Shown: positions 15,735 through 22,168 of the stretch, one piece after another
Layout: each line of letters begins with the position of its first letter
Numbering within the stretch: the stretch's first letter is position 1
Source of the DNA: Methanothermococcus thermolithotrophicus DSM 2095
GTDB lineage: Archaea > AGJL01 > Methanococci > Methanococcales > Methanococcaceae
DNA length: 64,000 nucleotides
NCBI RefSeq assembly: GCF_946463545.1
Contig: NZ_OX296583.1
Coordinates: 496,001 to 560,000, forward strand
Direction: 5' to 3'
Notes under the pieces: model-generated
Databases searched by the model: none
The model's input: only the letters and a program-made list of their open reading frames with translations
What the model was told of the DNA's origin: nothing
Made by a program: the position numbers and the translations under genes

Positions 15735-16976
15735 ATGTCGAATAAAACAAAATCGAAAAATAACCAAGAATTGACTTACCAAGTCGTTCTATCTTACAAA
15801 GTTAGTCATAACTATCCACTTAAAACTTTTTTAACTGAATGTAAAGACAAGTTAAACATAAGCATCGACATAATTTGGAATAACATCGAATACACTAAAA
15901 AAGGTTATCCAAAACTCCCGAAATCAAACGAATTCAAAAGAAATTTAAGAAACAAACTCTTAGAAAATTGGAATTATGCCTCTCATTATATCGATGGGGT
16001 TATAAAAACCGCTTATTCAGTCTTAGAAAGTTGGTTATCTAACTATAAAAGAGGTTATAGAACTAAAACAAAACCGAAAGTAGAGCGGCTATTCGTTAGG
16101 GTTAAGACAACTCTAATAAAATACGATAAGGAAAAAGGAGAGATAAGGATAACCATAAAACCGAGAAAAGAATATTTAGTTTTAAACATTAAAAACGAAT
16201 GGTTTTTCGATAAAGTTAAAGATTTATCAATAGGAGAAATTATTTTAAAAGAAAATGAGGCATTTTTAACGTTCAAAGATAATCTAAACTATTCAGATAA
16301 AGAAATAGTTGTTGGGGTGGATAGCAATCTAAAATCTCTCGATTTGTTCCATCCGATAGAAGGCTGGATAAGAGTTGATTTAACCGAATTACATCGACTT
16401 AAAGAAGTTTATGATAAAAAAATCGACTTTCTTAAATCATTGCTTAAAAAATGCCCTTTAAGAGTTATGAGAAAGATAGAAAGGTTATTCGAAAGGAGAA
16501 GGAACAGAGTTAAAGATTTTTTACACAAACTCACAATCCAATTATCTCGATTATTTCATAACGCGATTTTTGTTTTTGAGGATTTGAATAAGAGGAAGAT
16601 GTATAAAAATAAATACTTCAATAGAAGAATAGACAGGACAAATTGGAACAGCATAATACAAAAAATCAGCTATAAAACGATTGTTATCTTAGTTAATCCT
16701 GCCTACACTTCGACAACCTGTCCTATATGCAGGAGTAAAATGGAGTCCCAAGAGGGGCAGGTTGTTTGCTGTAATTGTTCAGACTCTTTTAACCGTCAGT
16801 TAGTTGGCTGTTTAAATATTTTTAAAAGAGGTTTAGGAAAAATTAAAGAGTTGATGGGTGGCTCAGGGGTTACCACGACAGGGACAGAGGTTTCCTTTAG
16901 AAAACTGATGACGTCCAATCCAAACGTGGTCTATTGTGTAGATTATAACGGAAAATACTTAATAAGAGTTGGTTAA
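15735..16976 (+). mobile_element. tnpB: IS605-type TnpB, catalytic RuvC-III residue lost
   Basis: 413-residue TnpB of the IS200/IS605 superfamily, normally an RNA-guided nuclease that promotes element retention. RuvC-I Asp196 (VGVDSN) and RuvC-II Glu282 (FEDLNK) are intact, and the zinc ribbon is CPIC...CCNC. The RuvC-III motif, usually DRDVxAxxN, reads NRQLVGCLN: Asn353 and Gln355 replace both acidic residues. No tnpA lies nearby, no Shine-Dalgarno site precedes the ATG, and the reading frame is otherwise full length. It could be an inactivated relic or a nuclease-dead guide-RNA-binding repressor; the downstream 130 bases would hold any guide RNA. Confidence 0.88.
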
Positions 16977-20923: not shown

Positions 20924-21158
20924 TAGTAATTAATAATTCATATAATTTTACCAATTATTAATTAGTTTTTTCAAAAAAGATAAATATAACCTAAATCCTA
21001 ATTTATAGTAGTTTGCGTTAAATATTGAAAAATACACCAATAAATTTAAGAAAGATGGATTATTTTAAAATTTGAGGCGTAAACATTCTACAATCATTTA
21101 ATTTCGGAACATATAATAAATTTTAATAAATTTACAAACAACTATAATAGGGGGGAGT

Positions 21159-21782
21159 ATGTGGAAGAAATTTATAATCATTATAGGTCTAATTTTTATA
21201 GTGTTGTTATTCAGCGGATGTATTGGAAATACTCCAGAAGAAGCCATCAATTCTAAAATATCTGAAAAAACATTTATTTCTGAAACTTTGGGAGATTGGA
21301 AGGCCGATGGAGTTATTGGAAAAGATGAATATTCTCACAAAATCTCATTGAATGGTGGAAAATTCATAGCTTACTGGGGAAATGACGATGAGTATATCTA
21401 CATGGGGTTAAGGGGACAATCTATCGGATGGGTTGCTATAGGGTTTGAACCAACTAACGCAATGAAGGATGCAGACATGGTTTTTGGCTGGGTTAAAGAT
21501 GGGCACGTGGTTGTTTTAGATCTCTATTCAACAGGGACCTTTGGACCTCATCCTCTAGATGAAAGTCTTGGAGGAACTAATGATATACTCGAATATGGGG
21601 GCATAGAAGAAAACGGTTATACAACACTAGAATTCAAACGTAAATTAGATACCAAGGACAAATATGACAAAGCATTTGTAAGAGGTCAAAAAATAAGATT
21701 CATCTGGGCTATGGCAGATAGCGATGATCTAAATGTTAAACACAATATTGCAAAAGGAAATGGCGAATTAACATTAGACTAA
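21159..21782 (+). CDS. DOMON-domain lipoprotein
   Basis: 207-residue predicted extracytoplasmic lipoprotein. A signal peptide of about 20 residues ends in the lipobox LLFSGC (Cys21). The rest is a DOMON beta-sandwich, shown by YIYMGLRGQSIGWVAIGFEP, MKDADMVFGWVKDGHVVVLD and the closing FKRKLDTKDKYDKAF...IRFIWAMADSDDLNVKH. DOMON domains bind haem b or sugars; in cellobiose dehydrogenase and eukaryotic CYBDOM proteins they hand electrons to or from haem. The start follows GGGGGGAGT. The next gene, 14 bases on, encodes a four-helix protein resembling the cytochrome b561 partner. Confidence 0.85.
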   Translation: MWKKFIIIIGLIFIVLLFSGCIGNTPEEAINSKISEKTFISETLGDWKADGVIGKDEYSHKISLNGGKFIAYWGNDDEYIYMGLRGQSIGWVAIGFEPTNAMKDADMVFGWVKDGHVVVLDLYSTGTFGPHPLDESLGGTNDILEYGGIEENGYTTLEFKRKLDTKDKYDKAFVRGQKIRFIWAMADSDDLNVKHNIAKGNGELTLD

Positions 21783-21796
21783 TTGCTTATTTTTTA

Positions 21797-22168
21797 TTGG
21801 TGGTGGTCCTTATTGTACAGATATATCAAATTCACGCCGTCCTACAAATTTTAGCCCTTTTTTCATTAATCTTAGGTGCTTACTATGCAAAAAAACATAA
21901 CTTAAAAATACATCATCGTTTTATTTATTTAGCTTTAACTTTAATGACTATAGCAATTGGAATAATGCTTTATTGGGCTAGGGGCATCCCTTCATTTCAT
22001 GGCAAATTAGGAATATTAATTTACATCTACATATTGGGAACGGCGTTTAGCGGTAGGCTTTTTTTAAAGGGAAAAATAAAGAGAAGTACTCATAAAGCAT
22101 TGGCTATAAGTTCAATCTTTTTGTTTACCATGCAAATACTCTTTGGGATATATACCTATGTTCTCTAA
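21797..22168 (+). CDS. b561-like four-helix membrane protein
   Basis: 123 residues, mostly four transmembrane helices. His residues sit where cytochrome b561 binds two haems: IHAVLQILALF, KIHHRFIYLAL, SFHGKLGILIY and STHKALAISSI. The pattern FHGKLG resembles the HSWLG motif of b561. With the DOMON lipoprotein upstream it would reproduce, as two proteins, the DOMON-b561 architecture of eukaryotic electron-transfer proteins. The exact start is uncertain: TTG 21797 and GTG 21800/21803 are all in frame and the ribosome site is unclear. Haem binding is inferred. Confidence 0.72.
   Translation: MVVVLIVQIYQIHAVLQILALFSLILGAYYAKKHNLKIHHRFIYLALTLMTIAIGIMLYWARGIPSFHGKLGILIYIYILGTAFSGRLFLKGKIKRSTHKALAISSIFLFTMQILFGIYTYVL

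Follow-up and report, generated by a model that had tools for sequence, protein, structure and literature searches.

Two adjacent genes of the methanogen Methanothermococcus thermolithotrophicus DSM 2095 encode a DOMON lipoprotein and a small four-helix membrane protein, which together probably form an electron conduit that consists of two proteins, faces outward and is expected to work with haem b. They were found in a 64,000-nucleotide stretch of contig NZ_OX296583.1 (positions 496,001 to 560,000), which is called the window below and in which coordinates are given. We favour the conduit because of the DOMON profile and fold of the lipoprotein, the invariant Met-His pair of the one protein and the six invariant His of the other, the co-occurrence of the two genes, the parallels with the proteins HYP1 and CG8399, the tree, the fusion of a related DOMON to c-haem motifs, and the profile-profile match to archaeal DUF420. 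Counted against it are the lack of any Pfam or PDB match above threshold for the four-helix protein, the missing haem synthesis, the lack of a partner gene, the existence of broken copies and the lack of a known electron-carrying role in DUF420 proteins. In the usual view, Methanococcales and most Thermococcales have no cytochromes.

The first gene (21159-21782, forward strand) encodes a lipoprotein of 207 residues with the lipobox FSGC (Cys21) and a DOMON domain at residues 69-185. Its sequence is preceded by a purine-rich ribosome-binding site, GGGGGGAG (21148-21156, forward strand). After a gap of 14 bases follows an open reading frame of 123 codons with a TTG start (21797-22168, forward strand), which encodes the four-helix protein; both frames are where the first-pass annotation had put them. 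The true start of the second gene may be an ATT codon (21812-21814, forward strand) rather than the TTG at 21797, which would widen the gap to 29 bases, because the homology of its relatives begins there (profile match at G000:517812) and a Shine-Dalgarno-like GGTGGTGG (21799-21806, forward strand) precedes it. Read from this codon, the N-terminus is MVQIYQIHAV, and that of the Palaeococcus pacificus counterpart is MVAPYQIHAV. An ATT with such a good Shine-Dalgarno match could be either a rare start or a sign of early decay. We ruled out that the second frame is a chance one, since its Thermococcaceae relatives, mostly 44-58% identical, are conserved over nearly the full length and its six His are invariant. 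The pair is preceded, at a distance of about 4 kb, by a TnpB/IS605-type transposase-like gene (15735-16976, forward strand).

The DOMON identity proposed by the first-pass annotation is confirmed by profile search and fold alike. The lipoprotein matches Pfam PF03351 with 97.7 bits (E = 7e-28), well past the curated cut-off of 32.7. Its AlphaFold model (pLDDT 81) is a beta-sandwich resembling, in Foldseek searches, the DOMON domain of dopamine beta-hydroxylase (4zel, 4e-7) and the cytochrome domain of cellobiose dehydrogenase (4QI3, 9e-5); it also matches ethylbenzene dehydrogenase gamma and nitrite oxidoreductase C, both haem-binding DOMON-like structures. Met/His ligation is a signature of haem b in DOMON domains. 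Met102, His131 and His195 are invariant among 12 archaeal relatives, and Met102 and His195 are the candidates for the expected axial ligands of haem b. They are 93 residues apart, a spacing identical to that of Met286 and His379 in CG8399, an insect DOMON-b561 protein with four b561 His in TM1-TM4 (PMC10691727). In another archaeon (G254), a protein (L015, 697-2196, forward strand) joins a DOMON of the same subfamily to a stretch that holds six CxxCH motifs and to a membrane helix at the C-terminus, and this fusion is a candidate extracellular electron-transfer protein.

AlphaFold modelled the second protein, from an alignment of 14 sequences, as four helices (residues 2-32, 36-61, 67-90 and 96-122) with a mean pLDDT of 93.3. 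All of its six His, namely H13 (in IHAV), H34, H39 and H40 (HH), H68 (FHGKLG) and H99 (THK), are invariant in the 20 intact sequences; the chance that all six land in the 15 invariant columns of the 123 aligned is about 1e-6. The four-helix fold and the b561-like His pattern that had been read from the sequence were thus both recovered. H13, H40 (or H39), H68 and H99 mark the starts of helices 1-4, at the membrane edge. Lys and Arg cluster in the loops that follow TM1 and TM3, so that both termini should be outside; in this charge-based topology the outer side would hold H13 and H68, and the inner side H99 together with H40 (or H39). H13/H68 are the candidate haem ligands of the outer pair, and H40 (or H39)/H99 those of the inner pair. 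In the b561 scheme of DOMON-type insect proteins, which covers TM1-TM4, the first and third His are non-cytoplasmic and the second and fourth cytoplasmic (PMC10691727). The archaeal protein likewise has a conserved His in each of the four core helices, on alternating membrane faces as predicted from the loop charges.

The resemblance to cytochrome b561 proposed in the first-pass annotation holds for the layout of helices and His, but not for the profiles. Against Cytochrom_B561 (PF03188) the protein scores 13.6 bits, under the cut-off of 23, and seven of 14 relatives match this family weakly (best E 0.0015). A PF03188 scan of 336 archaeal genomes gave four weak matches, in frames that do not look like b561. 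The nearest Pfam family is DUF420 (PF04238), with 21.6 bits for the methanogen protein and 28.3 bits for the best relative; every member scanned stays below the cut-off of 30.5. A profile-profile comparison, whose alignment took in one mis-picked row (L088), matched the group to archaeal DUF420 (88.8%, 2.5e-6), most aligned members of which do not conserve H13. Foldseek found nothing at E<=0.001 for the four-helix model, and the b561 structures 4O6Y and 5ZLE were not among the best 50 matches, which is weak evidence; helical bundles match poorly. The top matches, insignificant ones, were to the four-helix part of cytochrome oxidase subunit III (COX3-like), and sequence searches of the PDB returned no solved relative above threshold. 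Because PF03188 is sub-threshold and DUF420 nearest, we assign the protein, on its profiles, to a separate, DUF420-related group that is b561-like in layout only. We know of no electron-carrying role for CtaM or other proteins of the DUF420 family. One half of the haem A synthase CtaA has been proposed to descend from DUF420 (PMC8239418), which keeps the four-helix protein among haem-related four-helix proteins.

The four-helix gene is present in 22 of 94 Thermococcaceae genomes and the DOMON gene in 33. Nearly all genomes with the former also have the latter (21 of 22; Fisher p ~1e-11), and in 20 of the 22 the DOMON gene is directly upstream on the same strand; there too, the two open reading frames are separated by a stop. 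None of 34 other Methanococcales genomes has the pair, the sole trace there being a weak N-terminal match to the lipoprotein in one genome (G002), and phage, plasmid and viral collections contained no relatives. A tree built from the joined proteins, for which DOMON-only relatives of other archaea served as outgroup, places the methanogen pair as sister of the P. pacificus pair (support 98/99) inside Thermococcaceae (100/99). Since its pair is nested there, the methanogen probably acquired it horizontally from a relative of Palaeococcus in the Thermococcaceae, the tree pointing to transfer in this direction. The G+C content is 36% for the DOMON gene and 32% for the four-helix gene, compared with 33% for the window. 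That of P. pacificus is 43% (PMC4574382), and the host-like composition of the pair, set against this value, suggests that the transfer is old. By its distribution and tree the unit is mainly one of Thermococcaceae, with this methanogen as a probable recipient, and is not peculiar to the latter; on the tree, we rejected a methanogen invention. The mobile plasmid pT26-2 was considered as a route and dropped, as the paper describing it reports no exchange between these orders.

Frameshifted copies of the DOMON or the four-helix gene occur in four Thermococcaceae genomes (G297, G366, G402 and G414; L017, L055, L075 and L050), a number that draft assemblies may inflate. Several broken copies indicate that the unit is dispensable though useful. 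Rubrerythrin genes are often near the Thermococcaceae pairs (15 of the genomes examined). Other genes nearby encode a peroxiredoxin, a FUR-family regulator, an NADH:rubredoxin oxidoreductase, a flavodiiron protein, a ferritin-encapsulin fusion and redox lipoproteins (PF03640, PF00174). This context hints at iron and oxidant handling, and we take it as a hint only because the immediate neighbours are unrelated in P. pacificus and the methanogen; at the methanogen locus, no known partner gene adjoins the pair. A rubrerythrin/ferritin-like domain fused to encapsulin (Linocin_M18) is encoded near the four-helix gene in genome G407 (L084, 3138-4178, reverse strand).

A haem protein in this methanogen raises the question of the haem source, as the first-pass annotation had already remarked, and the question is real. 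A profile search for AhbA/B of the siroheme-haem route (PF17805), whose controls matched as expected, and one for ferrochelatase both found nothing in the methanogen genome. In Thermococcaceae, AhbA/B gave one sub-threshold match only (G401), and ferrochelatase was detected in one of the 14 genomes tested (G402). These enzymes were used and AhbD left aside because the AhbD profile matches radical SAM proteins of every genome, always below cut-off. With AhbA/B and ferrochelatase missing, the pair must either rely on scavenged haem or bind another ligand. We infer that the methanogen takes haem from its surroundings, and this is the weakest link of the haem reading. A survey found AhbABCD in none and SirC in all of 20 Methanococcales, which make siroheme precursors and F430 and do not make haem (PMC8351635). 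The Thermococcaceae genome with ferrochelatase is unusual for the family: the same region (L074, G402:C2:315000-334500) encodes a CydA/CydB-like cytochrome bd oxidase, an NDH-2/SQR-like flavoprotein, UbiA/UbiD-like proteins, a polyprenyl synthase and a FecCD-type importer, and the DOMON gene of its pair is frameshifted. Its assembly has 2% contamination, so that the binning of the cytochrome bd and ferrochelatase region needs caution.

A literature search returned no paper treating DOMON, cytochrome b561 and archaea together. The pair had been described as the CYBDOM architecture split into two proteins. In the plant CYBDOM protein HYP1, a Met/His pair combines with His pairs on TMa/TMc and TMb/TMd in a modelled three-haem ferric reductase (PMC10784544). 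The archaeal pair is predicted to share with Arabidopsis HYP1 and Drosophila CG8399 an extracytoplasmic DOMON with a conserved Met/His, spaced as in CG8399, and four helices with alternating His pairing, TMa-TMc outside and TMb-TMd inside. In contrast to CYBDOM it consists of two proteins with a stop between the frames, its DOMON is lipid-anchored, and the four-helix part has only 118-123 residues, with His spacings of 27/28/31 against 34/33/36 in HYP1. The analogy thus stands for the DOMON, the four helices and the ligand candidates, and fails for the Cytochrom_B561 profile, which is not significantly matched (13.6 bits). To our knowledge, neither ascorbate nor quinone is expected in these archaeal hosts. 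DUF420 proteins (PF04238; CtaM/YozB) also have four helices with His at the helix starts and give the best profile match of the group, but those of archaea are longer (about 160 residues) and mostly lack H13, and the link of the family is with the assembly of haem-copper oxidases and not with DOMON. The DOMON fold and the Met/His ligation of haem b recur in AIR12 and in the cellobiose dehydrogenase cytochrome domain (4QI3, 9e-5), but these have other partners and no adjacent membrane cytochrome gene.

The gene pair, the folds, the invariant residues, the co-occurrence, the phylogeny and the missing haem-synthesis genes are direct results of the analysis. The putative haem binding, electron flow and physiological acceptor can be combined as follows. 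A soluble cytoplasmic donor, possibly rubredoxin or ferredoxin, would hand electrons to the four-helix membrane cytochrome, in which they would cross the membrane from the inner haem (H40/H99) to the outer haem (H13/H68). From there they would pass to a third haem (Met102/His195) in the DOMON lipoprotein, held on the outer face of the membrane by its anchor. The lipoprotein would in turn reduce an external acceptor such as Fe(III), some oxidant or a redox lipoprotein acting as partner. In this reading the pair would do the work of the eukaryotic DOMON-b561 ferric reductases, with two genes instead of one and a smaller four-helix part.

The two proteins might instead capture or store haem, the DOMON lipoprotein taking up what neighbouring organisms release and the four-helix protein receiving or holding it in the membrane, on behalf of a host unable to make haem. 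The lack of AhbA/B and ferrochelatase in the methanogen, the lack of ferrochelatase in 13 of 14 Thermococcaceae, and the combination of a surface lipoprotein with a membrane protein, which is also the layout of capture systems, would all suit this role. Haem auxotrophy has moreover been proposed for methanogens that have haem-binding proteins without haem synthesis (PMC8351635). Nevertheless, a four-helix protein of 118 residues is small for a transporter, no transport partner adjoins it, and four His at both membrane faces, together with Met/His ligation, are what electron-transfer cytochromes typically show; we consider haem capture unlikely. That the proteins bind, in place of haem b, another tetrapyrrole made by methanogens, of siroheme type, or a metal held by the His, would agree with the siroheme precursors and F430 of Methanococcales (PMC8351635). 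It conflicts with the haem b signature of the DOMON ligands and appears highly improbable. Nor are the Thermococcaceae, the main carriers, known to us to make tetrapyrroles.

That DUF420 is the nearest family raises the alternative of an assembly or stress factor like CtaM, which assembles haem A oxidases (PMC9145763); the four-helix protein would then carry no electrons but help to mature a metal centre outside the cytoplasm, or to protect it, and the DOMON protein would be an accessory. However, most aligned archaeal DUF420 proteins do not conserve H13 whereas all six His are invariant in the four-helix group, and strict pairing with a DOMON of electron-transfer type differs from CtaM. We know of no reason to expect a haem A oxidase in an anaerobic methanogen either, and we hold such a role to be quite unlikely. 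Finally, the acquired pair could be decaying and functionless in the methanogen, as the possible loss of an ATG start (ATT at 21812), the long branch of the four-helix protein and the broken copies common in Thermococcaceae would suggest. This is very unlikely in view of two open frames, the strong ribosome-binding site ahead of the DOMON gene and the retention of every ligand candidate at about 40% divergence. The base composition, adjusted to that of the host (36% and 32% against 33%), also implies that the pair has been kept for long.

We hold it to be evenly balanced whether the two proteins represent a new family of minimal four-helix di-haem cytochromes with DOMON lipoproteins, which would provide Thermococcaceae and one methanogen, organisms thought to be without cytochromes and haem synthesis, with an outward electron path through scavenged haem for iron reduction or oxidant removal. 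If true, these archaea could pass electrons out of the cell by means of borrowed haem, and it would become directly testable whether archaea of hydrothermal sites are haem auxotrophs. It would also suggest that the DOMON-b561 reductases of animals and plants have a small prokaryotic counterpart.
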